Part shown: one piece after another, positions 1 through 15,504 of the stretch
Layout: each line of letters opens with the position of its first letter
Position numbering within the stretch: the stretch's first letter is position 1
Origin: Tricholomella constricta
Taxonomy: Eukaryota > Basidiomycota > Agaricomycetes > Agaricales > Lyophyllaceae
Length of the DNA stretch: 21,327 nucleotides
Reading direction: 5' to 3'
Assembly: GCA_013368375.1 (NCBI GenBank)
Contig: JAACJP010000097.1
Location: forward strand, 1 to 21,327
Notes under the pieces: model-generated
Told to the model about the DNA's origin: nothing
Databases searched by the model: none
The model's input: only the letters and a program-made list of their open reading frames with translations
Made by a program: the position numbers and the translations under genes

Positions 1-1143
1 GAAAATACGGGCTGTAATTCACTGGGGGAGTAGGTAATACATGGGTATGTTTTTATACTATACGACCGACTCGCCTCGCGCGAGCCGGCGAGCAGGTGTT
101 TTACTGGTTTATTGGGAGAAGCGCCGCCAAGCTTGGTACCGCGCGACGCTTTTTAGAGAGTGTGGCGCTCTTTGGCTCGGCAAAGGGGCTTTTGATCGGC
201 TCGAGGCGTCGGGTCGGATGTATGATCGGTGGTGGCTTTGCGATCGGTAGTGGCTCTTGGGTGCGGAACTCCGTGGTACGGCCGGATCCTTCCTGCGACT
301 GGCTGGGCAACGGCGTTTCCTAGGATCATTTCAAATCGGGTTTGGTTGTCGCCGGGTTGAGACCTTGGCATAACGTGCGCGGTCGTTGACAGGTTATACG
401 GCGTTCCGTGCTCCGTGCGCCCAGAGAGGAGAACTGGCGTTTCAAGTTACTTTGTTTCTTGGTCGGTGCGTCGGTCGTTTGGTCGTATTGTCGGTCGGTC
501 GGTCGTATTGTCAGTCGGTCGGTTTAGCGCTTTGGTCGCATTTGGGACCGTGTTCGTCGTGGCGCAACGGTAGATATCCGTAGAATGGGTTGGTTCAGTG
601 TACAGCGCTGGACGGTGCTCATCAACGCATCTCCCCAAGGAGCGTGGAAAATGGCTCAGGGCCAAATCGGCTGGCAAAGAGGGTGCGCATAACTGCCATG
701 AGCCGTTTATCAATTGCCACGCGAGCCGTTGAGATATGCTTACAAGAAATCAGCAAGCAGAAAATATATACCAGCTGAAATACTTACCAGGAAATGACTC
801 TTGAATATGACGTGGGAGTTGAGCAAGAATTTCCTGGCTAGTCCCCTGATATGACGCTCCGCACCCCGGGTTTGAAACTCGATCCTTATTGCAATTTAAT
901 CGCCCAGTCAAGCAGAAGTAATCGTTATGCATGTCACGAACTCGTCGAGCAATTGGATCACTGTTCCATCCTAGTATCAGGTCATGATTAGTTCGTAAAT
1001 TTAATTGTCATCATCGTGAGTACATACCATCTCGAGTAAGATGTCCAAAGCATTTCGGGCACCGGAGGCAGTCTGGTCGTCCAGGAAGAAATTCGGGAAG
1101 CCATACAAAAATAGGAAGATGATATAGGTCTGTCGGTGAGTAA
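1..1143. other. Gene-poor left flank with GGTCG-rich low-complexity DNA
   Basis: I see no convincing gene here; the short open frames look like chance. The stretch from about 455 to 525 is a degenerate GGTCG run. It includes a 20-bp direct duplication at 481-500 and 501-520 with one mismatch. The segment at 190-250 carries similar GATCGGT words. Weak tRNA promoter-like boxes at 556-602 do not fold into a tRNA. The right part probably lies just outside the Helitron 3' end. Confidence 0.5.
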
Positions 1144-1212: not shown

Positions 1213-2214
1213 TCACAATTGCAGATCTCGACGGCCATATACAACCATGATTGGGATACGCGTGTCTAAGACATGTAAGTCAACATCCGCAAACCGACCC
1301 TCGTAAATCATCAACCCACTCGCAACCATACCGTCGTGCTTCCATACGGAGCCCGCAGGCGAAAACACTCGACAGGTAAAGTGATATTCGCCGTGATAGA
1401 CAATACCCACCAGCCAATACTCAACGTTGCGTTCGCCATCCTGCGATTCAATAGGCACAGACAGGTTCAAACTGATATGAGGGCTCCCCCTTACTACGTC
1501 AAATGCCAAAAGAGGTGGCCCATCTAAAAACGTATGTACTCTAGTGAGCCACCTCTGACATACTCGACACTTAGAGGCAGATTGGACATGAAAACGGCGA
1601 ACATAGCTTTGAAGGGTAATATTTGCCCTGGCAGGTAGGACAGGAATCAGCGCACTTGACAGCGAGACACGTTGAGAGTTACCATTATTACAGGCTCTTA
1701 AGCACACCTTCGTGGAAGTCATCACAGGCTCAGAAGTTTTCAGGAGATGGTCAAATATAGCATGAACACTTGTGTACTGCCCCAAGGAAAGGATGTTCTT
1801 GAGAGCGAGAATAATTCACGGCGTAAGTTGTCTCGGACACTCTCCAAACCAGCCTCATTGAGAGCTGCATATTCTGTAAAGCCTGCCGTCAGGAGCCCGA
1901 GACTTCCCGGATTTAAGTCCTTCAGCGCCGCAGTCTGCACCAAGGGATTCCGTCTCCATACATTGTGCAGTATTGCTACGGTTGCATCATACGCACAGCT
2001 ATTCTCTCTCCACGGAGTACCCAACGGTGTATCTGCTGCTCTCTCCTGTTGTTGACCATGCACGTTTGCATTGAGCGTAAGTTTGACTTTCTTCTGACTT
2101 GGCATTTCATCAGACGCAGAATCAGTCCCTGATAAGTCTCGTTTAGGTTGGCGACTATCGGCGACATGGGTGCCAGGAACTGTGCCTCTTGCAGGGACAT
2201 AGTTGTTTTTTTGG
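1213..2214 (-). pseudogene. Frameshifted C-terminal USP-like cysteine peptidase region of the Helitron protein
   Basis: Direct continuation of the RepHel protein in other frames. The helicase frame hits a stop at 2155, but the frame one base over reads on through a linker into a peptidase. The switch lies at a run of seven T (A on the coding strand) at 2206-2212; six would keep the frame. A second break sits at the run of four C (G on the coding strand) at 1780-1783; five would keep the frame. The joined region has the thiol motif ENSCAYDA (Cys at 1997-1995), cysteine pairs CLRAC and CRVC like the finger of ubiquitin-specific proteases, and EYHFTCRV with a candidate catalytic His near 1383-1381, then VWKHDG. 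Related domains end many fungal Helitron proteins, as I recall. Each break could be real decay or a homopolymer sequencing error. Catalytic residues seem preserved. Confidence 0.78.
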
Positions 2215-5200
2215 CTGCAGAGCAGCTTTCTCGCTCGCCTTTGTCAATACCATCCAATCTACATCCTCAAGAACCCAGGGAAGAAAGGGACGTGCATCGT
2301 CCCAGCGAATCGCAGCAGCAACAGTCAACGGCATATAGTCCAAGCCTTTACAAGCTCGGAAAGAGTCTATCAGTGTATTTCTTCTGCCTGCATCATGCAT
2401 CCCTTTTGGGAGCTTACCAACATACCGTAGGCTGGTTATGTCATCAAGCAGCTCTAACTCACGGAACTCCTGTCGCAGGGCTCCAGAAGCTCCTCCTGTT
2501 ATAATGTTCTGGGAAAAGCCCTGCAGCGTTATTGTGCCCTTAGCGCAAATTCCTCTTGACAGAGATGTGTACATCGCATGATGGGAGGCACAGTTACTGA
2601 TATGGACCACATTCCATTCCCTTGTCTTGCCCTGTGATGCATACTCTGTCATGGAGAAATTCGGCAGCACTTCTACTTGTGTCCGGGACACATTTAGCGA
2701 GGAGTCATCTGGCAGCACGCAGACAGTGCCCACCGTAGTTTTAGTAAGTGGAACCACGTTCTCCGGTAATGCAGGCAATTGAACTTTCTTTGGCGGATCT
2801 TTCAAGCGTACGAAGAGAGTATCAAGTATCCTCTGTCCTCTCGCTCCCTGTGCAGACTGCCACGAGTGAACATATCCCTCTTGGCCACGTGTGATACATA
2901 GCTCTGTCGCAGAGTTTAGGCGAATCATGACGGGCATACCGATGCACAAGGACAACTTGCCAGGAATTATATTTGAATTCGAGCTGTGAGGAGCATCCCA
3001 CAGGTCCTTCTGTACCTTTACGGATACTTGCTGTTTTTTGACTTTAGTCTTATTTCCGGCCGCCTTCCTTTTTGCCCTTTCTTCTACAGCTTCAGGAGGT
3101 GTCACAAGATCTTCCGAGAAAAAATCTGTCAATGTTTGGTTGGTCTCCGCCGCAAATCTCTTAGAGCCAACCATGTTAATTGCGTCTTTATCAGCATTGA
3201 AAGACGTAATTATAGAGACATTCCGAAATTGCTTTTCAGTAACAGACTGACGGCCAAGTGAGTCACTTGACTGCAAGGAACGTAGGAACACCAGATCACC
3301 AGGGGTACATACTTTGTACCGCATGTTTTCCAATGCGGTGCATAATTTTCTGTCGTCAACAGAGTTGTGCGTCTGACGCATGTTTTTACGCAAGATAACT
3401 ACAACAGTCACTTGGTGCCAAAGGGCCTTACCGATCGCGGCCTGCTGATGGATCAATTTATTTCCTTTTGTACCTACTTTCCGGCTATATAGTGAGATAT
3501 CTTCGCCACCCATTACCGGAGGAAGCTGCGCAAAATCCCCCGCAAATATCATATTCATGCCTCCAAACGGTATTTCTGGATTTCCTAGCACCTGCGCAAG
3601 TCTAGCACTAATCTGATAGAGGTTATTACAAGATAACATTGACACTTCGTCAAAAAACACATAATCTACTCCGGTCAGCCGTGACTTCACCTGTGAAAGC
3701 TGATTCTTGGTCTGTTCATACATATCCGAAATTCCAAACATGTAATGGTAGGTCGACCCTCCCAATAATGCAGCTGCTGTACCAGTTGGGGCAACCACCA
3801 CAAAGCGGTGGGTCTCGCCTCTTGCCTCGAAGAACTTGATCAAAGCTTGCAATACCTGTGATTTTCCCGTACCCCCCATTCCAGCAATGTACATTTTTAA
3901 AGGTTCAGCATATAGATTCACTGCATGGTTTGCCACGATTGAGTATGCTCTATGTTGTTCCTTGTTTAGCTGAAAGTCTAAGGCGATACGGCTGATGGTC
4001 TTCTTCCACTTCCCAGTCTGGCATTTTTTCTCTAAGTAAGATCGATCAACCACTTCAACAACATTTGGATCTGCACCTTTCCAGAATATAGGTGGTTTGT
4101 CAGCTGGTATGTTCTTTGTTCTTTTATCTAAAATCGCGGCCCTCGCTGACACCACAGACGCTTTCCACTTTGTTCCAGGCTGATCAAGGCTTGGTGGCTC
4201 CGGCGTGAGGTCAGTATCCTCAGGAAGCAAATCAGCCTGCGGCTTGCCCCAATTAGCGCTGTTCACAATGTTAACCATATCCCGCATTATGGCATCTCTC
4301 CTGAGATATCGCTTTCCAACATTTTCTGAGATGCCAAGAGATTCATCATCCACAACGGCACCCTCGTCATAGGTGTAATCGTCAATCTGCTGGTCTTGCT
4401 GCGAGTCAGCGATGAAAGATTGGTCTAAGTTCATCCAGCTCGGAAGGTGAGCAGTGTTATTACCCTTCTTTAGTTGGGCATGGAAGTCATCCTGAGCATC
4501 CATGCACTCATATTGAATGTTAAAATTTTTCATGTATGTCTGATGTCTGAGGGAAAAATTGGCTGCTAGAAACGCCTCCTCCCAGGAACCGTGATTGCCC
4601 CTCAAATCAAGGCCAGATCTCCATGGCTTAAACAAGGTGAGCATGGTAGTGCAGTAATATTCACGATCACCTCTGTCATGGCGGGGTAATGCCTGACCAA
4701 CTAAATTAGGCACAGATCTACGCTCTGGATACACGCATAAAATGTTATGCGTGGATGCTAAGGGATGGCCATCCTCAAAACGATGAACAGTGTATTCACC
4801 ATGCCGTTTCTTGATGCCTGCACCACCGCCCTCAGGGAACGTCTGATGTTCTACTTCATGTACCGCTGCATCGTCAAGATCATCAGAAACGTCCTGATCA
4901 GTTGAGGTAGGCTCTGCCGGTTCTCCCTTGATTCGTGTACATTGAGAGATCCAGTCATACAGTGACATTGATTCAAGATCTGCAGAACGATAGATATAAT
5001 CATACACAGGTGAAAGACCGACGACACGTCCATTGCGCTGTATCAGCATAACCTTCTCTGGTAGGCGATTGCTGTTGCCTGTATCATCTGGCCAAGCTGA
5101 CAATACTTCAGAGACGTAACTCTGCCAGTAGAAGGTTTGAAATTTGTGACTTGTATAGTGATCAGGATTACCCAGAAGATACATGCATATCATCGGAGAA

Positions 5201-8200
5201 CCCATTTCCATCTTCACGCCCAAAAGATTAACAATTTTTGTCATGAGGGATCTCGCCTTCTCTTGGTGTGGCGCACTTCCACCCAAAATTTCAGTGTTTT
5301 TGTGAAAGATAGACCGCACCACATCAAAAATAACGTGAGTTTTCAAAGACGTTTTAGTAACATATTTTGTGACATAATACATCACACCCTTTATAGCTGT
5401 ACCTGAGCGCAGACTTGTCACGTCCGTATTACAGCGAAATAGGTATGTAAGCGGAGCAGAGACTGTATTAATCCACCCCTCAAGTTTTTTTATATTGAGG
5501 GACCCAGTAGCAGGATCAACCTCCGTCTGCTGAAAAAGTGGGCGGGGAAAACGACCCCGACACGTTCCCCGATCATTATCCAGGCATCCGGCATATTGCC
5601 TTTGCTTGTTCTGGGTTCCATCCTTGTTGATGTTTGACCTACACGTGTGGACATTTGACCTCAAAAGTATGTCATCAACAGTGAACATGAATCGAGACCA
5701 CCACGATTTTAGCTGCATACAACGATCACATGCTGTGCATCCATCAAGGCATATATCAGGAGGTGCTTCAGGTAATGTTTCTGTCGGCTTTTTATATCCT
5801 GGCGCTTCTTCTGCAGTGGCTACAGCCCCGCGCACTTCATCCATTGTGCCGGTACAGAATTCTCCTTGATGAGCAGCCTCTAGATATTGCACAAGTGAGC
5901 GTTGGAATGGGGAGGTGGGGTCCATAATTGCTTGACGAGCTTCATCTGGAGTCAAGCCATTCCTGATCCACAGCAAAAGATGCAGATGTAGTGTCAGCCG
6001 CCCCTGCTGTTCAACTGTCCCATAGTACGCTGCCGTGTCACCATACAATCCTGAATGATCTGAGCTAAAACCCAGAACATGCTCAATGAATTGCTTTACC
6101 ATGAAGTCAAAGAACCGCGCTGCTGCCACTGGATTTTTGGAAATGAGTCGGAAGCGTTCGTCGCTCGATCTGATAATGTCAGGTTCAAACTTTTCCTTGG
6201 AATCAGCGAAGTAAAGGCATATAGGATTACATATGTCAGCAGGCGACAAAGTTATATACCATGATGGTGCGCCTTGGTTAGCCACTAGAGACCATATCTC
6301 ATTTCTCATATATTTCTTACTTGTGACAGACCCATCAACCTTGCCGCCAATGTGATCCAGGTCTCTAATAATCTGAAAGCAATTCTTCTCATCTTGTGTC
6401 ACTGGTTTTACTACTTCGCCTTGCGCCATCCTCTTAGAAATATCCGCAAGGACATCCTGATTGACATTCAGAAGACGCTCTGTGATATCGTGGAATTTAG
6501 TCTTATCTGCTAACAAATAGCCCCCTGTGTTACTGGCCTTTATTTGGCGATGGCTGAAGGCTGCAAATGGGAACGCAACGTCATTCTGAAACCTTTTATC
6601 GTGATACATCAAGAGGTGTTTCTTATGCGCATCGTCAGAACGGCCTGTAGATCCTATACCACCCAAGCCGTAAGGAAATAGCCAAGGAAACATCTGGGGG
6701 TAAAGTTCCGGGTTTTTATAAATAGACTCTGGGGTACCCATGTGGCCCACCCGAAGTGCCCTACCTCCAGAATTCCAATGATTCATGGCTATCCCCTTCA
6801 ACTTCTCAACTGACTCCGTTCCCATTTGGTCACCGGTCAGACCATGGACAATAAATGGACACTCGCCCACATCTATGCCTTCTTCATCACCGTTATCATG
6901 AACACTGATGCCCTCGGGAACCTTAGTCATAAGGCTCTCCTTGTATATGACAGAAACGAGCGGCATATCCTCCGGATATTTGGATAGGTTCTCGTCAGAA
7001 ATACCCACATCAGCATAGTCTGAGTGGTTGAGGACGAGCCATTCAAGAGCTTCCCTCACAGCAGCGCGTCTGACTAGGACTGGAGTACGTTTGAATTCTT
7101 CAGTAGTAGGTACGACAGGACCGGTGAATAAGATAGCCAGAACATCATCCAAGTCTTCAACAGGTGGTGGTAGAAAGTCGTACAATTTTGGGACCGGTGA
7201 TTCAAAGGCTACAAGGTGTGCCCTCATCGTATGGCGACCAGAGGAGGCTACACGGACAAAATTACAGTTGTGGCGTACCCGAGCAATCAAGAGTTTCTCC
7301 ATGAAATTAAGACTTGACAGCGCCTTTGGAACATCGCCCAGCCAAAAGCCATTTGCAAGTGCAAAGGAAGGTACATTGCCTTTTCTGATACACGCCCTAC
7401 AAGTGAAGCAAACTCTATCACAAGAGGAATCCAACACTGGACCTTTTCGCTCCCTTATTGGTTCTGATGCAGATTTTCTTTCAACTCTCGTTACGCCTGG
7501 TGTCTCCAGAACATGAAGCATGCGTTTGATATTTTTGAGAGGGCTCAGCATACGAACAGGAACCAACTGACCGCATACAGCGCAGCCTCCCTCCTCTAAC
7601 ACCTCAGGCGAAGAAGCTGCGCAGAAATCTTTAACAATTTTGTAAGAAATTTCAGGCGTCAATGGAGGGGGAGGAAAGGGTATATTGTCATCAGGAGGGC
7701 ACACTGGGACACCGGCGCTGGCAGACTCTTTTGCTTGTGATATAGCTGCCCTCTTATTTTTTTCAGCCCTCTTATTTTTTTCAGCAATTTTAGCTTTGAG
7801 ATTATGGGATGGCTTCAGAATTAAAACGCTTGAGTAGATATTGCATGCAATACAACTGTGGCCGTTTAGCGCCGAAAGCATGTCCTCTCGATAGGGCCGC
7901 TTTGGCAGAGATATAGAGTGAATCCTTGCGACCCATTTCATATTGGCAATTGATGCACGTTGCACAAGTAGTTGGAGAGGGACATTTGCGTGTACAAATC
8001 CTTCCGTAGGTGGGTACTGTAAAAGACCGCGACTATCAACATGATCGACAAATTTCAAGGTATAATCATCTGGTGAACCGTTGAAGTCGCTGGTCATGAA
8101 CGGATCAATCTCTTCAAAGGTGAAACCACGCGGATTTTTGGCCAAACATACCCCTCCCCCTACAGGCAAAGTAGAAGCTAATGGTATGGATGGAGAGGTG

Positions 8201-8277
8201 GTACGCCGCCGGTACATATTGCAAGAGAAACGAAATTTTACAAAAGAAAATGTGGTTACATTGGTAGGTAGTTGCAT
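2155..8277 (-). CDS. Helitron Rep-helicase protein (RepHel)
   Basis: Single open frame for the rolling-circle replication initiator and helicase of a Helitron. The frame is open from 8919, but the first plausible Met is at 8277 (or 8097); protein-like sequence starts there. Residue numbers below count from 8919. A DUF6570-like region with CAVCGQL and CFTCRAC cysteine pairs precedes the Helitron-like N domain. The HUH motif is HLHLLLW (H978, H980). The Rep tyrosines are in YVTKYVTK (Y1182, Y1186). The helicase has Walker A GMGGTGKS (K1686), Walker B FFDEVSM (D1757-E1758), then GDFAQLPPV, LRKNMRQ and a C-terminal YASQGKT...TSLSRG motif, as in PIF1/RecD2 (superfamily 1B) helicases. All core motifs look intact. 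The linker holds a perfect 18-bp tandem duplication (7749-7784) coding AEKNKR twice. The frame ends early because of a frameshift near 2206-2212. Confidence 0.93.
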   Translation of the reverse strand: MQLPTNVTTFSFVKFRFSCNMYRRRTTSPSIPLASTLPVGGGVCLAKNPRGFTFEEIDPFMTSDFNGSPDDYTLKFVDHVDSRGLLQYPPTEGFVHANVPLQLLVQRASIANMKWVARIHSISLPKRPYREDMLSALNGHSCIACNIYSSVLILKPSHNLKAKIAEKNKRAEKNKRAAISQAKESASAGVPVCPPDDNIPFPPPPLTPEISYKIVKDFCAASSPEVLEEGGCAVCGQLVPVRMLSPLKNIKRMLHVLETPGVTRVERKSASEPIRERKGPVLDSSCDRVCFTCRACIRKGNVPSFALANGFWLGDVPKALSSLNFMEKLLIARVRHNCNFVRVASSGRHTMRAHLVAFESPVPKLYDFLPPPVEDLDDVLAILFTGPVVPTTEEFKRTPVLVRRAAVREALEWLVLNHSDYADVGISDENLSKYPEDMPLVSVIYKESLMTKVPEGISVHDNGDEEGIDVGECPFIVHGLTGDQMGTESVEKLKGIAMNHWNSGGRALRVGHMGTPESIYKNPELYPQMFPWLFPYGLGGIGSTGRSDDAHKKHLLMYHDKRFQNDVAFPFAAFSHRQIKASNTGGYLLADKTKFHDITERLLNVNQDVLADISKRMAQGEVVKPVTQDEKNCFQIIRDLDHIGGKVDGSVTSKKYMRNEIWSLVANQGAPSWYITLSPADICNPICLYFADSKEKFEPDIIRSSDERFRLISKNPVAAARFFDFMVKQFIEHVLGFSSDHSGLYGDTAAYYGTVEQQGRLTLHLHLLLWIRNGLTPDEARQAIMDPTSPFQRSLVQYLEAAHQGEFCTGTMDEVRGAVATAEEAPGYKKPTETLPEAPPDICLDGCTACDRCMQLKSWWSRFMFTVDDILLRSNVHTCRSNINKDGTQNKQRQYAGCLDNDRGTCRGRFPRPLFQQTEVDPATGSLNIKKLEGWINTVSAPLTYLFRCNTDVTSLRSGTAIKGVMYYVTKYVTKTSLKTHVIFDVVRSIFHKNTEILGGSAPHQEKARSLMTKIVNLLGVKMEMGSPMICMYLLGNPDHYTSHKFQTFYWQSYVSEVLSAWPDDTGNSNRLPEKVMLIQRNGRVVGLSPVYDYIYRSADLESMSLYDWISQCTRIKGEPAEPTSTDQDVSDDLDDAAVHEVEHQTFPEGGGAGIKKRHGEYTVHRFEDGHPLASTHNILCVYPERRSVPNLVGQALPRHDRGDREYYCTTMLTLFKPWRSGLDLRGNHGSWEEAFLAANFSLRHQTYMKNFNIQYECMDAQDDFHAQLKKGNNTAHLPSWMNLDQSFIADSQQDQQIDDYTYDEGAVVDDESLGISENVGKRYLRRDAIMRDMVNIVNSANWGKPQADLLPEDTDLTPEPPSLDQPGTKWKASVVSARAAILDKRTKNIPADKPPIFWKGADPNVVEVVDRSYLEKKCQTGKWKKTISRIALDFQLNKEQHRAYSIVANHAVNLYAEPLKMYIAGMGGTGKSQVLQALIKFFEARGETHRFVVVAPTGTAAALLGGSTYHYMFGISDMYEQTKNQLSQVKSRLTGVDYVFFDEVSMLSCNNLYQISARLAQVLGNPEIPFGGMNMIFAGDFAQLPPVMGGEDISLYSRKVGTKGNKLIHQQAAIGKALWHQVTVVVILRKNMRQTHNSVDDRKLCTALENMRYKVCTPGDLVFLRSLQSSDSLGRQSVTEKQFRNVSIITSFNADKDAINMVGSKRFAAETNQTLTDFFSEDLVTPPEAVEERAKRKAAGNKTKVKKQQVSVKVQKDLWDAPHSSNSNIIPGKLSLCIGMPVMIRLNSATELCITRGQEGYVHSWQSAQGARGQRILDTLFVRLKDPPKKVQLPALPENVVPLTKTTVGTVCVLPDDSSLNVSRTQVEVLPNFSMTEYASQGKTREWNVVHISNCASHHAMYTSLSRGICAKGTITLQGFSQNIITGGASGALRQEFRELELLDDITSLRYVGKLPKGMHDAGRRNTLIDSFRACKGLDYMPLTVAAAIRWDDARPFLPWVLEDVDWMVLTKASEKAALQPKKQLCPCKRHSSWHPCRR

Positions 8278-9326
8278 GGTTCTATAAGCCTTCGAAAACA
8301 AGCAGGAATAAAGGGAAAAACAATTCATAAATAACAATACAAAAGGCAGTTGTGCTTGACACGTACAAGGTGACCGATGCGAGCAGAAGGGACTGGCAAA
8401 AATGCTGTAGTCACCGCTTGCACGACTGACTCTTCTGTCTAAACCGGCTAGAAAATCGTGCTTGTAAAGAAATCCACGCTGCATGAGCCACCAAACGATA
8501 GAACAAGATCGACGAACATTGCTTCCTCGCAGGGAGGATGCAAAAACTGACCAGTTGAGGAGACTACGATGGTACCACGACAATGAACTAGAGTAATGAC
8601 TACGAGACCAGAGCTTGGCAGCATGATATAGACGAAGACGCTGTCGCAGTATGTTCTGAGCCAATATTAAAATATGGGGCCTTAAAAGCACTGAAAGTTC
8701 ATGTGATGGGACAGCTGACGTGCTCTCAGTGAAATGCGGGGCCAAAAAGCAGGACGTGGGTCGATATGATGTATATGTTAATGATATGCAAGAATGCATG
8801 GAGGGTACGTGGTAAGCTGAAAGCTTAGAGGCGGGGATAAGGCCTGTGTTACACCCAATGTGGGCAGGGCTGTCATAGTGGGACAACCCGATTGAAGAAC
8901 TGCGTGAGCAGCAGTGCAAGCTTGAATTACGGCGGGCTGGGATCTATAAAAAATAGCGTTTGAATAAGGCTTTAAGTAGACAAGTTCATAATACACACAC
9001 CTCGATAGGCGCAGGGAGGCTGAAAATCCCGTGAGGGAACCGGTGCACGGCAAGACTGCGCAATGAACTGTCAAATCTCACATACAACGTTATGATCATT
9101 AGAATGTACGTGGAAAGCCTCTTACTCTGATCCAGGCGAATAGACCACGGAAGTATGAGCAAACCAACGAGTGCAATAATCTCGAAGAAAAATGATATGC
9201 TGGAGCGACGGCGTTTTTGCATTGTGGGAGATGACAAGGGACGCGAAAAAAGAAGCCAGGCTTCAGAATCAACATTTTCCACGTGACAAAGTATATGGAA
9301 TCGTCTGCTGGAAGCCCACAACATCT
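8278..9326. other. Intergenic region between Helitron start and TET/JBP-like gene
   Basis: The Helitron frame stays open through 8278-8919, but its translation is compositionally odd and resembles nothing I know, so I treat it as upstream DNA. The open frame at 8986-9324 (minus) encodes a basic, hydrophobic peptide without recognisable features. The Helitron 5' end and promoter should be here, but I cannot place either. Confidence 0.45.
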
Positions 9327-10591
9327 CTAGACACGAAATCCTGGGATTCCATGTAGCGCTTCGAAGTCGGATTGCCTAACCCAACCTGATTCACCAAACC
9401 CGAGGAAATCCAACACATCCCTACGCAGGTAGTGCGCCACGCACACGCGCTCCCCACCACTCCAATCCATCATCTCATGCTTTAAAGTGTTACCGCAAAG
9501 GTTCACTACTGTGCAAGGGTCGTAGGACAGACGAAGCCGGATATCCGGGAAATCGAGGTAAGCTGTGCTGAATGGACCAACACTAGCGAGGGAGTCATAC
9601 CAACACCGGCTACTGCGATGGTCAACGTGAGATGGGGTGAGACGATTAGCTATTACAGATATGCCGCTAAAAACAGACGTCCATTGAGAAGCTATTTCTT
9701 GCGTCGCTGGGAGTGCACGGAGCCTGGATAGGGCAGCAGCAGCATCGTCATAGAGACGGGGATGGGTAAGAGCGAGAATGCTGTTAATAACAACCTCGGG
9801 AGCAGTGATTTGAGACAGCCATTCTCCGGCCAAAGAAAACTCTCGGAGATTCAGCGAGGGTTTCAAGGTGCAGCAGTTCGACTGTAACTCCCGTGGCATG
9901 AGTATTGAGACTCTACACGGTAAGACATACGCACTGAATGGCCTTGCGCGTACCAACCCGAGGATAAATTTACAGAGCCGGGCGTAACTGACGGGTCCAA
10001 GATAGGAGGGTAATATGCTGGCGCAACTCGCCAGCTAGTTGATGAGCCGTTACTGACACTCTTGTATAAGAGGTCGTTCAGAACTGACGATGCGTCGAAA
10101 AGCTGCTGCTATATTAATGGGCACTAAGCAGAATAACTAAAAAATCAAGAGCAACGTACCTGTAATCGCACAGGCAAAATATTCGGTAAATACCAAATTA
10201 CGATAATGCCCGTTGAGTCAACAACGGTAGCAGGTACGTCAATGTGACCAAGTTCACGGGGTGGAAACAAGGATGATCTCTTTGCACGTGGCGTGTCAGC
10301 ATAATTTTCGATACTCCATTCAAGATAAACTAGAACGTAAATCAGCCTCTCAAATCAGCAGGGCTCCTTGAATTGAGACTTACTTGGGTTAAGGAGCGCC
10401 TTTGTAACAACTTGGAGCACCCGATGCTCACAATCCTGGTACTCCGAACGACGCCTAGGTTTGTTTTTTGGAGCAGAGCCAGGTACCTTTTTCTGCCCTG
10501 CAGATGGATGGGGTTGTGTTTTATCAGGCGATGATAACATAGTGGAAAGGCGTTTGACAAAGCGCGCTCGCAATTGGTCCAAATTTTCCAT
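9327..10591 (-). CDS. TET/JBP-like 2-oxoglutarate/Fe(II) dioxygenase, four exons
   Basis: Likely oxidises 5-methyl-pyrimidines in DNA, the known activity of TET/JBP enzymes. Exons: 10591-10384, 10329-10160, 10108-9935 and 9881-9327, separated by introns of 54, 51 and 53 nt with donors GTAAGT, GTACGT and GTGCGT. All phases agree, giving 368 aa. The basic N-terminus (KPRRR) is followed by a family-typical LFPPRELGHIDVPATVVD region and by PPILDPSVTPGSVNLSSGWY. The catalytic part has SHVDHR (H269, D271 as the HxD iron ligands), CWYDSLASVGPF, LKHEMM (H319, distal ligand) and GGERVCVAHY (R329, likely 2-oxoglutarate contact). This matches mushroom proteins named 2OGFeDO JBP1/TET. In basidiomycetes such genes expand together with KDZ transposons; no KDZ transposase is visible here. 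The last intron could instead start at GTAGAG (35 nt). No lesion is seen. Confidence 0.83.
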
Positions 10592-10751
10592 GCTTGAGGA
10601 CTACTAAAGTAGCGGGAATTGGGCGCTCATGAAACAAACGTTCCCTCACGTGCTTCACGTGCAGATTTTACTCACCCCTAATCGTTGGAGTCTTCCGGCC
10701 TTTCATCTCTTTCCATGTCTCGATCTACCTTTCATTTGGTTCTACTCAATG

Positions 10752-11560
10752 TCACCACCTCGCACTCGTGCGACCGTAAAGAGAGGAAAGGCCAGCAGCG
10801 GTCCAAATTTCGTTACAGCGTTGGATGAAGGTATGACGAGATAATGGCTGCCAGCCATCAGAGGTTTCGAAGGCAAAGAGTGGGGCGTTGGGAGGGATGT
10901 TGGGGTTGACAGCAAGATGGTGTTCGAGAGCCGCAACTGGATTGACGTGATCATTAGTGGCAAAGGAGAAAATCCAATCGCCGAGATGTTTTGTCGTTTT
11001 GGTCCAAGGAATGCGGAACTTGATGAAATTGGAGTTGTTGGGAGCGGTGCCTCGTGAGAAGTCACAGTTGCGAGAGACGTGGAAGGCTGGATTGAGGGTT
11101 GTTAACAAGGGACAAGGAGTTTCACCAAGGCGACAGCAACTGCGAAAGGCAATGGAGGCTACCGCCCATATAGCAGCATCACGGGTGTTGGATAGATCAA
11201 GGAGGGCGCGAAGGATAGACATATGTTTAAGGGTAACCGGGTTGCGGGGGGGAAGGTGGCTGGAGGCCGGGGCAAGGTTTGCGATTCCCGTTTTAGTGCG
11301 TTTAAGGAGGCGAGAGCCAAACCAGGGGGCACCATTGACGGCATGCCATAGTTCTGAACCAGCTAACCAGGACGACACAGTAGAGCACGCACGGCGGCGG
11401 CCCCCATCTCAGCTGCAAAAATAGAAAGGAGGGTTTCACTGGCAGGCATACGGCAAGGTTCGGGAATATGATGGCGGTCGCAAAACTGAGTAAATCGAAG
11501 AAGCCCAGCACCGTAATTTTACTGAGACTTTCACCAGACCTGATAATTTGGTGCAAATCA
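10752..11560 (-). pseudogene. Decayed Crypton-like tyrosine recombinase
   Basis: The family cuts and joins DNA through a tyrosine nucleophile. The main open stretch (10752-11378) reads through APWFGSRLLKRTKTG, LAPASSHLPPRNPVTLKH, then SCCRLGE, which carries the first catalytic Arg, and IPWTKTTK, which carries the candidate Lys. It continues to HLAVNPNIPPNAPLFAF, a pattern I know from Agaricomycete integrase-like proteins. Upstream, the same protein continues in another frame (GAGLLRFTQFCDRHHIPEP, MPASETLL) from about 11515 to 11385. One missing base near 11385 and another near the T4 run at 11517-11520 break the frame. The C-terminus stops at YGRTSARW, where the family has its HxxR box. The His/Arg box and Tyr are absent, so it should be inactive. 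It lies just upstream of the TET/JBP-like gene on the same strand. Confidence 0.78.
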
Positions 11561-12382
11561 GCTGTGGATTCCGAGTAGGTTCACCTCACATTCGATCCCA
11601 GGTGGGCAAATGCATCGCGTACCTTCCATTGGCTACGAGGAACAAAAATATCAATCTCATGCCCCTTAAGACGTTACGGTGTACCTCCATAAAGATATAG
11701 CTGGAAAACAATGAGTGAGCATTAAGATGCCTGGCGTGACGGAACATACATTTCGTTGAAGTCGGGTGATATCGCATCGACGTAGATCAAGCCAGTGATG
11801 TTCTCGTGGTCTGCAAAGTGGCGTAACAATGTAATTTTGCGAACAGCTCACTTTGCTAGCTGGACTTTGTCAAATACATGCGTAATCTAAGTTGATGGCA
11901 ACTGTTTCTCGCTTGACGTTGTACATGTCTAGTTGCGAAGTAGCGGGCTTTGCGGTCGTCAGAGCGCCCTTCCGGTGTTATCAAATAAGAGCAACCAGAT
12001 CCGGCTTGTTGATCAAAGATCGACACGTGGGAAAATTCACGATCACGTGCTGTAAGGAAGGCCACGTCAAACGAACTGGTCGAAATGCTGCTTCTGTCCC
12101 CCCATCATCTGCAGCGAACTGTACGCCCATGCTTGAAATGAAGGCTCAGGCCATAGGGGGTGTGTTTTTTTTCTCATAAGGCAGATTTTGCTCACTAGTT
12201 ACCCTACAGCCTGGATACCAATAGCGAAGCTACTTGCATACTCATATCACAGACGCAACGCCGTATGTTTGTATTGCTGTGGTTGTCTTTACTAATACTA
12301 CGTAGTGCACAGGAATCAACACCTCTCGGTTGACCCAGAGGGCAAGCAAGTCGTCGACAGGCATCTTTCTCTAGGAACAGCC
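11561..12382. other. Intergenic region, no gene recognised
   Basis: Short open frames on both strands look like chance and none carries a motif I recognise. The upstream end of the recombinase pseudogene should lie in the first part but is not readable. Near 12327-12346 there is a small imperfect hairpin with CCTCT/AGAGG arms, which may be the outermost member of the hairpin array that follows. Confidence 0.5.
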
Positions 12383-13328
12383 AGTTTGGGGACTGCCAAA
12401 CCCTAGCGCGCCCAGTTATGGGTGCACAGAGTCGTGAGCCGGTTGAGGCTAGGGCATTGCATCAGATGTTGGAGCGGACGCGCTTCAACAACTCGAAGCC
12501 AGTTTAGGGTCTGCCAAACTCTAGCGCGCCCAGTTATGGACGTGCGCTCACGCAGGTCAATTAAGACCTTGTGTTATCCAGCGCCCAGTTAGGGGTGCGC
12601 AGAGCCGCGAGCCAGTTAAGGCTAGCGCGTCCAGTTGAGGACGTGTGCGCACGCAGGTCAGTTAAGACCTTGCGTTATCCAGTGCCCAGTTAGGGGTGCG
12701 CAGAGCCGCGAGCCAGTTAAGGCTAGCGCATCCAGTTATGGATGTGTGCTCATGCAGGTCAATTAAGACCTTGCGTTATACAGTGCCCAGTTAGGGGTGC
12801 ACAGAGTCGCGAGCCAGTCAAGGCTAGCGCGTCCAGTTATGGATGTGTGCTCACGCAGGTCAATTAGGACCTTGCGTTATCCAGTGCCCAGTTAGGGGTG
12901 CGCAGAGCCGCGAGCCAGTTAAGGCTAGCGCGTCCAGTTATGGACGTGTGCTCACGCAGGTCGATTAAGACCTTGTGTTATCCAGCGCCCAGTTAGGGGT
13001 GCACAGAGTCGCGAGCCAGTCAAGGCTAGCGCGTCCAGTTATGGACGTGTGCTCACGCAGGTCAATTAGGACCTTGTATTATCCAGTGCCCAGTTAGGGG
13101 TGCGCAGAGTCGCGAGCCAGTTGAGGCTAGCGCGGCACAGTTAGAGGAGTACGGACGTTGCTGGCGGACCCTGCCCAGCGGACGTGCTCCAACAACTGAT
13201 AGCCAGGGTTAGGGCCTTCCAAACCCAGCGCGTCCAGTTATGAACGTGTGCTCACGCAGGTCGATTAAGACCTTGCGTTATCCAGCGCCCAGTTAGGGGT
13301 GCGCGGAGTCGCAAGCCAGACGAGGCTA
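12383..13328 (+). repeat. 101-bp tandem array of stem-loops
   Basis: Regular units start at 12584, 12685, 12786, 12887, 12988 and 13089, exactly 101 bp apart; a further unit starts at 13288 after a rearranged block, and a variant block lies at 12383-12583. Each unit holds four inverted repeats with 6-nt loops: GCGCCC[AGTTAG]GGGTGCGC (one bulged T), AGCC[AGTTAA]GGCT, GTCC[AGTTAT]GGAC and AGGTC[AATTAA]GACCT. In eight copies the AGCC/GGCT arms never change (arm starts 12437, 12610, 12711, 12812, 12913, 13014, 13115, 13314), while the loop reads GGTTGA, AGTTAA, AGTCAA, AGTTGA or AGACGA. The AGGTC/GACCT arms also stay fixed over AATTAA, AGTTAA, AATTAG and GATTAA loops. The variant blocks carry other hairpins, for example GTTTGG[GGACTG]CCAAAC near 12388 and TGTTGGAGC[GGACGC]GCTTCAACA near 12467. 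There are no unique spacers, so this is not a CRISPR array, and no protein is encoded. Confidence 0.92.
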
Positions 13329-13343
13329 GCGCGGTACACATGT

Positions 13344-13369
13344 CCAACCTGCATGTCTATGCAGGTTGG
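13344..13369. repeat. Perfect 10-bp hairpin closing the array
   Basis: CCAACCTGCA, a 6-nt loop TGTCTA, then TGCAGGTTGG. It is a perfect inverted repeat 15 bp beyond the last AGCC/GGCT hairpin of the tandem array and keeps the same loop length as the hairpins inside it. It could be a transcription end, a structured RNA end or a relic of how the array formed. Confidence 0.85.
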
Positions 13370-13398
13370 TTGTGGCGTTGAACGCTGTAAAGTACCTA

Positions 13399-13697
13399 GG
13401 TATTAGATTGCCAAGTTTCCCGTGCCTTCGTGCTCCACAGATCGCCCAGATAATGGGATGGACCTGCTGGTGTTTATTTTTCACGAAAAGGCCAGTCATC
13501 GAAGGACTACAGGCGAGTAGGCATTAGATTTCCAAGCCTCCGGCCCCTTCGCGCCCCGGAGATCCCCCAGAAAATGGGATGGTCCTAGTGGGATTTCATT
13601 TTCAATTTTATACATAGTATTTATACCGTACGCTACGAATTGCTGAGCTGGGTACTTCGATGACAAGGTCAGTCGTCGAAGAACCACAGGCGAGTAC
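13399..13697. repeat. Diverged direct duplication upstream of the H3-tail-like gene
   Basis: The words GGTATTAGATTGCCAAG (13399) and GGCATTAGATTTCCAAG (13520) start two related blocks 121 bp apart, both followed by ATAATGGGATGG-like or AAAATGGGATGG-like text. The block end CAGTCATCGAAGGACTACAG (about 13492) recurs as a diverged copy at about 13670, offset 178 bp. The second copy therefore carries about 57 bp of extra AT-rich sequence (about 13600-13657). The region is noncoding and lies directly upstream of the gene at 13806. Confidence 0.65.
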
Positions 13698-13805
13698 CCT
13701 TGATTTCATATCCGACGCGTCGATGACACGATCACGTGATATAAATGATAATTTCTGGCCATGTGAGCTGGCAGCTGCTGGAGCTGGACCACGACACTGT
13801 TCGTC

Positions 13806-15504
13806 ATGCCTAGGACGAAGCAAACCGCTGCACGGTCCACAGGGGAGCCAGCACCGCGCAAGGCACTTGTCGTCCCACCATCCAAAATGCCCGCGACGAG
13901 CAGGAAGCGCAAGGCCCCGGCTGACGAGGCAATGAGCAAGAAGCGCAAGGCCCCGGCTGACGAGGAGACTGAAAGTAGACGTTCAGCCCGGCTCAACAAG
14001 GCAACCGTTGAGGCAGTAGAGGATGTGGGCGTTGCAACCTCACAGGATATGGTCGAAGTTCGGCAGGACGGCCACAATGAAGTACGTTCTCCCAACTCAC
14101 GGTCCGTAAATTCAGTGTTAATCCCCCCGGCAAAGTTTTGCGCTGGCTGCAGGAATGGAGGCACGCTCATTAAGTGCTCCACCTGTGTAAGGGTTATCTG
14201 TGGAGATTGCATTACATTTCCTCAGACCTTGAGCGAAGATGAACCGTTCCAGTGCCCACCATGCCACCTTGAGTCGCGCCAGAAAAATGACAAGGAGATG
14301 GGGCCCTACCGCGTGAGTTCGTCACGTTTACACATAATCGGACGTGTCCTAAATTCGTTGATGCAGGGATTTCCTAATGCGAAGGAAGCTACGCGTTTAA
14401 AGGCGACGCCCACCACTCGCGAGGCCTTTGCGTTCTGCAGCTCTCCAGCTCTTGTGATAATTTCTGTGCGGCTGGCGTCCGTAGATCCCGTCGGCGATTC
14501 CGCTAGGACAGTGTATCATAACATTGCCCCGTTCCTTCCCAAGAACGTTGCCTTCGTGGACTTACCCTGGGACCTCGGAGAAGACCAAGGGTTTGAGGAC
14601 TATAACAAAAAAATCGACAGGCTCGTGCTTCGGTTGAAGGAAGGAGATCTGAAGAAGTGAGCCGCAATGACAAGTTCGCGAGGACGTGCTAAATACAATG
14701 AGATGATAGGTTCCGAAACTTCGCCGTATACTTCACGGATCATAGCGATCCAAGTCGTGGAGACCTTCATTTCACCGTTGGCTGCGGGGGGGCGACGGAT
14801 GTATCCTCGGTATACATGCATATTATTGGAAAGATAGTCGGAGGTTACTGAAATAATATTTCAGGTACTAAAACAACTGTTTCCGTCATCTCTGACCGCA
14901 TTCTTCGACGAGGGAAAGCGGAATACTTTAACCATGTTAGTCTGCGGGGCTATTGTTACCAACAAGGATGCCTACAAGGACCTGAAGGCATTTGCGGACC
15001 TGTAAGTCTTTGTATTTACGTCATATGCCCTAGCTAAACGACTACAGCGGACACTTCTCCTGGGTTATGGCCTTTGGCCAGAAAGTCCTGCAGCCCGCGC
15101 TCACCAACCCGCTCCTTCAAACTGCGTCGATTTCGTGGTTTATCCATGAACGACGATGGGATGCGGTCCTTGACGATCTCCAGATCGTTGGCGCTCACAC
15201 TGACGTATACAAGCTCGAAAAGGACAAGCCCACCATTCGGTACGTATGGGCCCATCAGGGAATCAAACCGTTTGGCGAGCCCGCACCGTATAGCTGCCCC
15301 GCTTGCAACACGTTCAAAGCATGGGGCAAGCCCGTCGATGTAAAAATGCGCAACAAGAAACAGGCAGTGCAGCTCTCCCACAAATGCGGCTACTGCCCGA
15401 CCCGCATCAAGTATACTCTCAAGAACACACTTGTAAAGCATACGGTTGGAACTCGTACAGCGGTCGTAGCACGGGGCGAATGGTACCGGGAGGAAATGAA
15501 TTAG
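13806..15504 (+). CDS. Histone H3-tail-mimic protein with PHD/ADD-like finger and zinc ribbon, four exons
   Basis: Exons 13806-14656, 14710-14809, 14865-15001 and 15048-15504; introns of 53, 55 and 46 nt with donors GTGAGC, GTATAC and GTAAGT. Phases agree and give 514 aa. The N-terminus PRTKQTAARSTGEPAPRK follows the histone H3 tail (ARTKQTARKSTGGKAPRK): R2, T3, K4, Q5, T6, S10, T11, A15, P16, R17 and K18 match, but R8 is A, K9 is R and K14 is P. Residues 33-52 hold a duplicated basic KRKAPADE, a likely nuclear signal. Residues 112-153 are C-x2-C-x8-C-x2-C-x4-C-x2-C-x14-C-x2-C, like PHD or DNMT3-type ADD fingers that read H3 tails. Residues about 215-350 alternate strands and helices with H295 (TDHSD) and C344 (LVCG) after strands, resembling caspase/CHAT folds. 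C446, C449, C476 and C479 form a zinc ribbon. I recall a large Agaricomycete family of this build with no known function. No lesion is seen. Confidence 0.85.

Follow-up and report, generated by a model that had tools for sequence, protein, structure and literature searches.

Tandem folding units that offer many copies of a loop are characteristic of repeat-domain long noncoding RNAs, of which the Xist A-repeat is an example, and fungal mitochondrial DNA carries dispersed G+C-rich hairpins known as double-hairpin elements. Stems in DNA can also be created, and their pairing mended, by template switching, including through multibase compensatory changes, as parts of PMC8794818 describe, and TET/JBP genes ride on many fungal DNA transposons according to the main text of PMC12730594. 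We analysed a stretch of 21,327 nucleotides (hereafter the window), the entire contig C95 of the 44 Mb, 118-contig genome of the agaric Tricholomella constricta, which holds a tandem array that is likely a conserved hairpin-array element and a candidate RNA. The initial annotation had stated that no element of this form was described, and our searches agree: Rfam gave no match in the window at gathering scores, nor any in window 12300-13420 or in stretch L044 with E up to 1, no tRNA was found, and no account of such a hairpin-array element was found in the literature by title or abstract.

Tandem Repeats Finder placed a 101-bp period at 12521-13143, with 6.2 copies and 91% matches. Seven complete units could be cut, starting at 12523, 12624, 12725, 12826, 12927, 13028 and 13227; the first six run on at 12523..13128 (plus strand; tandem-repeat, unit-cut and covariance-model evidence), and the seventh lies at 13227..13327 on the same strand (unit cut and covariance model). 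All seven show the four hairpins with AGTT-type, six-nucleotide loops that had been claimed for the unit, in the forms GCGCGTCC-AGTTAT-GGACGTGT (hairpin 1), AGGTC-AATTAA-GACCT (hairpin 2), GYGCCC-AGTTAG-GGGTGC (hairpin 3) and AGCC-AGTTAA-GGCT (hairpin 4), with one A.C pair interrupting hairpin 1 in two of the seven (12523 and 13227). A recount reproduced AGCC/GGCT arms in 8 copies with 5 loop forms and AGGTC/GACCT arms in 7 copies with 4. The description "built entirely of stem-loops" is mostly true but slightly strong, 23 of the 101 positions being spacer. Degenerate blocks stand before and between the complete units. The leading one (12383..12520, plus strand) holds the hairpins GTTTGG-GGACTG-CCAAAC and TGTTGGAGC-GGACGC-GCTTCAACA and a partial unit, and covariance model R1 gives a 27-bit match at 12363-12463. 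A leader-like module, TGCTGGCGGA..CCTGCCCAG.., is found at 13146..13189, and a single strong hairpin, CCAACCTGCA-TGTCTA-TGCAGGTTGG, closes the series at 13344..13369, both on the plus strand. With head-to-tail copies of a unit on the 10-100 bp scale, the array has the build of a minisatellite. A protein-coding repeat was considered and rejected, since each of the six frames holds 10-22 stops, the longest open run is 61 codons and 101 is not a multiple of 3.

The window is 99.87% identical to C61:156528-177860, so that one array locus is seen twice, and a DNA search with the window array found this locus and its C61 duplicate only. Flank searches led to loci that carry the window's neighbouring genes at about 65-67% DNA identity. 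A 135-bp tandem repeat lies between those genes at C39 and C17 and beside the TET gene at C6, and a DNA search found that C62 and two pieces at C10 also carry it. Blastn gave no match between the window array and the 135-bp repeat of C39, C17 and C6. The four hairpins of the 135-bp arrays, present at five other loci in all, correspond to those of the window at about 52% identity. The leader-like module is common to them as well (blastn, 77% over 44 bases to C39 and C6) and there stands ahead of all units. Of 33 units cut, the mis-cut C10a_425 and three identical copies were removed, and the remaining 29 distinct units, 7 from the window and 22 from the other loci, were aligned by sequence without structure. 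Hairpins 1, 3 and 4 came out in register and hairpin 2 one column off; mean unit identity was 52% between the window and the others, 91% inside the window and 86% inside the others.

A pattern of two AGTTNNGG motifs 9-19 bases apart, which finds only arrays with that spacing, matched 67 times genome-wide, against 75 for the reversed control. Fifty-three of the 67 matches fall inside six array loci (window/C61, C39, C17, C62, C6 and C10); the others are 12 singles and two overlapping matches in a 24-bp repeat at C2:56845-56900. We therefore rejected a genome-wide satellite: each of the six loci holds a single block of about 0.3-1 kb. What stands of the "101-bp satellite" first proposed is the 101-bp tandem unit; a sequence found at six loci, always beside the same gene, is not a satellite. 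At C10 the array is split by a roughly 6.3-kb insertion (C10:42071-48940) that starts with TGTTAG and ends with CTAACA; the GGCTT repeated on either side makes it resemble an LTR retrotransposon between the copies of a 5-bp target-site duplication. C7 and C84 both stop at a position matching window 13862, about 0.5 kb past the array, and the assembly is thus interrupted close to the array; C95 and C84 seem to duplicate one another. Window 1-627 is itself a repeat with at least 40 copies at 93-97% identity, some pairs of which are spaced by about 11-12 kb, as the two LTRs of a large retrotransposon would be.

The window consensus unit holds five hexaloop stems of at least 4 bp, where shuffles give 1.43 and 10 of 1000 reach that number; the 135-bp consensus unit also holds five, against 2.49 (106 of 1000), and taken alone, this count is poor evidence for the 135-bp unit. 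Inside the window array, diversity is 0.062 in the arms, 0.101 at loop positions 1-4, 0.190 at loop positions 5-6 and 0.095 in the spacer, in keeping with the constant arms and variable loops originally described, and loops more variable than arms are unexpected if a loop is strictly read, which speaks against a noncoding RNA. Between loci that description fails, as arms alter in matched pairs and the AGTT core stays. In the 135-bp arrays loop positions 1-4, at 0.032, vary less than the arms, at 0.059, with the spacer at 0.133 (19 distinct units, three end units and C10a_425 being out and C10a_359 in).

Our argument for covariation rests on the structure-free alignment, a register test for hairpin 2 and a consensus-versus-consensus simulation. 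The initial annotation had proposed a covariance analysis over all copies. On the structure-free alignment, 95.8% of cells in hairpins 1, 3 and 4 (17 pairs) are paired and 6 of the 17 pairs are altered on both sides, against 2.2 in shuffles, with none of 500 shuffles as high. Sliding the alignment brings pairing down to 57% or less. Hairpin 2, aligned by loop register, has 97.5% of its cells paired and three of five pairs altered on both sides, a count also reached by 124 of 500 shuffles; its covariation score of 0.664, against 0.398 in shuffles, was reached by none of the 500. When the two consensus units are compared, the inner arms are kept at 22 of 32 positions (10 differ) and all 16 inner pairs are still standard, for which simulation gives a chance between 1.5e-5 (no transition bias) and 0.02 (transitions only). 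Loop positions 1-4, the AGTT core, are identical between the families at 15 of 16 positions, and loop positions 5-6 at 1 of 8. Since hairpins 1-4 in a unit and the units in an array are related, few independent events underlie these figures. Taken within the 135-bp family only, hairpin 1 covaries no more than shuffles do (95.8% vs 95.4%; 250 of 500), a point against the noncoding-RNA reading. A mixed-core test gave 95.8% paired and a score of 0.77 against 0.30, and is partly circular because its 30 cores were picked as hairpins.

Paired changes of this kind could also be mutational. If template switching in the course of DNA synthesis produced and repaired the palindromes of a minisatellite, no function would be needed; the process is known to build and mend stems (parts of PMC8794818), homogenisation of a tandem array would spread such events, and arm repair would account for arms varying less than loops in the window array. 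We consider this explanation rather improbable, though a serious one. It leaves unexplained why arrays with only 52% identity should share their loop core at 15 of 16 positions.

The kinds of imperfect pair bear on the same question. By a counting rule that favours neither strand, G.T occurs at 21 pair sites and A.C at 8 (p 0.024) when end units are included, the four end or truncated units being out for hairpin 4, and at 19 and 5 sites (p 0.007) when they are left out for all hairpins. The raw pairs (412 Watson-Crick, 85 G.T, 11 A.C and 22 other) came from stems drawn with G.T allowed, with the same four units out for hairpin 4, and are superseded by this strand-neutral count. G.T is the majority state at some pair sites and A.C at none, whereas template switching predicts perfect Watson-Crick arms. 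The bias loses its significance where sites are mostly Watson-Crick, G.T to A.C standing at 12:8 (p 0.50) and 10:5 (p 0.30), and this loss too tells against a noncoding RNA. In folding energy the plus strand of the window array reaches z -11.2 (none of 20 shuffles equally good) against -9.1 for the minus strand, and three units tested gave -2.9, -4.8 and -3.8 against -1.9, -3.7 and -3.3. All 40 covariance-model matches, from 17 sources, lie on the strand of the gene downstream described below, most of these units having built the model.

A preference for G.T over A.C would be meaningless for duplex DNA, which brings in another alternative, namely that the array is a set of double-stranded binding sites upstream of a promoter, recognised by a transcription factor through a motif such as CCAGTTNNGG, without any strand folding. 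The Myb-type core is YAACTG, and the CAGTTA of the window units fits it; the inner two pairs are mostly C-G, as a plain motif would also give, and a conserved CACGTG/TATA-like box does follow downstream of the array. The arms of a binding site, whether plain or inverted-repeat, are kept, however, and here the outer arm letters alter in matched pairs around a constant centre, while the 135-bp family loops AGTTTG or AGCTTG do not fit the Myb core. On balance we regard duplex sites as unlikely. The folding may take place as RNA or as single-stranded DNA, and sequence by itself only partly separates these two readings and that of duplex sites.

Downstream of the window array, at 13806..15504 on the plus strand, lies a gene, its exons in pieces, whose predicted protein starts with MPRTKQTAARSTGEPAPRK, a sequence that closely resembles the histone H3 tail, and continues into a PHD-like cysteine cluster; in the relative P0003 the PHD domain falls below the Pfam cut-off. 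Relatives of this H3-tail gene are found at C39, C17, C62, C6 and C10; named protein relatives come from Lyophyllum atratum, Lyophyllum shimeji and Tricholomella constricta, and the ENA protein P0008 has the same start. The gene is also matched at C84 and C7, where contig ends duplicate the locus of the window itself. Four stretches of viral contigs match a peptide pattern; none encodes a relative of P0003, and we rejected them. The arrays and the H3-tail/PHD-type gene share the same six loci, and in six of six the array lies upstream of the gene on the same strand, about 0.4-0.5 kb from its start, a co-occurrence with one gene that template switching leaves unexplained.

The second neighbour is a Tet_JBP (TET/JBP dioxygenase) gene, divergent from the H3-tail gene, with its main exon at 9327..9956 on the minus strand (Pfam PF12851, E 9e-14). 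A close relative is present at five of the six array loci and was not found at C62; in Lyophyllum atratum the TET relative P0009 and the H3-tail relative P0001 are both assigned to a contig of 2,585,383 bases. Such company raises the possibility that the hairpins belong to a TET-carrying DNA transposon, as repeats in its interior or near its termini to which the transposase binds. Fungal DNA transposons with TET/JBP genes are many (main text of PMC12730594), and a distant TET relative on C51, itself about 3 kb from a KDZ transposase, has a hairpin-forming repeat of its own upstream. Yet no KDZ match lies within 15 kb of the six loci among the matches listed, and the array sits inside the locus, between genes, so we think this origin very improbable. 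The C51 repeat (stretch L047, C51:69700-72200) is a 59-bp unit in five copies, AACACAGAAATCGGT-GATTGC-ACTGGTCTGTGTT, on the minus strand at about C51:70780-71060; that locus was rejected as a member of the family, its repeat differing in sequence and covariance model R1 finding nothing there.

On the far side of the TET gene an intact ORF of 2254 aa, of Helitron type (DUF6570, Helitron_like_N, PIF1), occupies window 2155-8919 on the minus strand. The hairpins could then act in single-stranded DNA, for instance where a rolling-circle element, such as this large Helitron, is primed or transferred; a Helitron stretch is present near the TET gene of C10 too, and wobbles in single-stranded DNA would favour one strand too. 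But the Helitron stretch is matched at C10 only and not at C6, C39 or C17, three loci with no rolling-circle element near the array in the stretches seen, and the strand favoured for folding is opposite to the Helitron's sense strand. Because of the missing matches, and because the C6-C10 identity starts only after the Helitron stretch, we take the Helitron to be an independent neighbour, and a role of the array in its transfer hardly seems probable.

Two promoter-like boxes frame the array. The sequence GATCACGTGNT has 2 matches in the window against 0.05 expected. The CACGTG box GATCACGTGCT at 12041..12051 (plus strand), upstream of the array, is a candidate array promoter, and GATCACGTGATATAAA at 13730..13743 (plus strand), a CACGTG box with a TATA-like stretch 70 bases before the start of the H3-tail gene, is a candidate core promoter. 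A CACGTG box stands ahead of the array in the window and at C39, C17, C6 and C10 (where an LTR-type copy lies between box and array), and ahead of the H3-tail gene in the window and at C39, C17 and C6. Since the conserved GATCACGTGAT box, followed by the TATA-like stretch, lies between array and gene, the array is likely upstream of the mRNA start and not within the mRNA. An intron-like stretch, GTATGT..CTAAT..CGTAG, may be present upstream of the array at 12263..12305 on the plus strand, the sole one there in the window. At C39rc 10736-11284 and C6rc 7539-7982 we observed tandem intron-like stretches of exactly 49 nt (GYAAGY..CTGAC/T..YAG) with exon-like pieces of roughly 50 nt, upstream of the array and on its strand. 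In a naive intron scan the minus strand yields the larger numbers of candidates (13, 9 and 8, against 5, 5 and 2 on the array's strand), which counts against the noncoding-RNA reading.

Taking these observations together, we favour, with a probability of roughly 0.4, the reading that the array is a conserved folding element and likely the core of a plus-strand noncoding transcript upstream of the H3-tail/PHD-type gene, with AGUU-type loops predicted to be gripped by a protein. The plus strand of the array would be transcribed, probably separately from the H3-tail mRNA because the CACGTG/TATA-like box lies between the array and the gene. The many like AGUU loops could allow multivalent binding by a predicted loop-reading protein, and the array might regulate the adjoining H3-tail gene and, at five loci, also the TET/JBP gene. 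A bolder extension, which we put forward as a speculation with the odds well against it, is a new fungal class of noncoding RNAs in which tandem AGUU-loop hairpin arrays travel and evolve with the pair of TET/JBP and H3-tail-mimic genes and serve as a multivalent dock that keeps the locus open against silencing by DNA methylation. The initial suggestion of selection on, or copying through, a folded strand or RNA is strengthened by the matched-pair changes, the one-strand wobbles and the same four hairpins at five loci; its premise of constant arms did not survive, and template switching in DNA stays a rival.

Fast-evolving tandem repeats are usually dismissed as drift, but here diverged arrays hold four hairpins and a loop core, and an array lies beside every copy found of one gene family in the Tricholomella constricta genome. 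If transcribed, it would add a new structured RNA to a neighbourhood that holds a predicted histone-tail mimic and a predicted demethylating enzyme.

The arrays resemble the double-hairpin elements of fungal mitochondrial DNA in having G+C-rich hairpins in series, but those are dispersed, while these are tandem, lie on nuclear-type contigs and are tied to one gene family. With TET-carrying fungal DNA transposons (Kojima 2025, main text of PMC12730594) they have in common repeated TET/JBP gene copies in an agaric genome; they differ in that no KDZ transposase is near these loci among the matches listed, and the words "hairpin", "subterminal", "tandem repeat" and "PHD" are absent from that main text. 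Like the template-switch quasipalindromes described in parts of PMC8794818, they show compensated arm changes in DNA hairpins, and unlike them they retain mostly-G.T pairs, a loop core kept between loci and the company of one gene. If transcribed, the arrays would make a sharp test case for selection on RNA structure against template-switch mutation. Like the repeat-domain long noncoding RNAs exemplified by the Xist A-repeat, they consist of tandem units predicted to fold, with many copies of one loop; unlike those RNAs, they are known here from DNA sequence, have four short hexaloop hairpins per unit, and occur in a fungus, where their neighbours are an H3-tail/PHD-type gene and, at five of the six loci, a TET gene.
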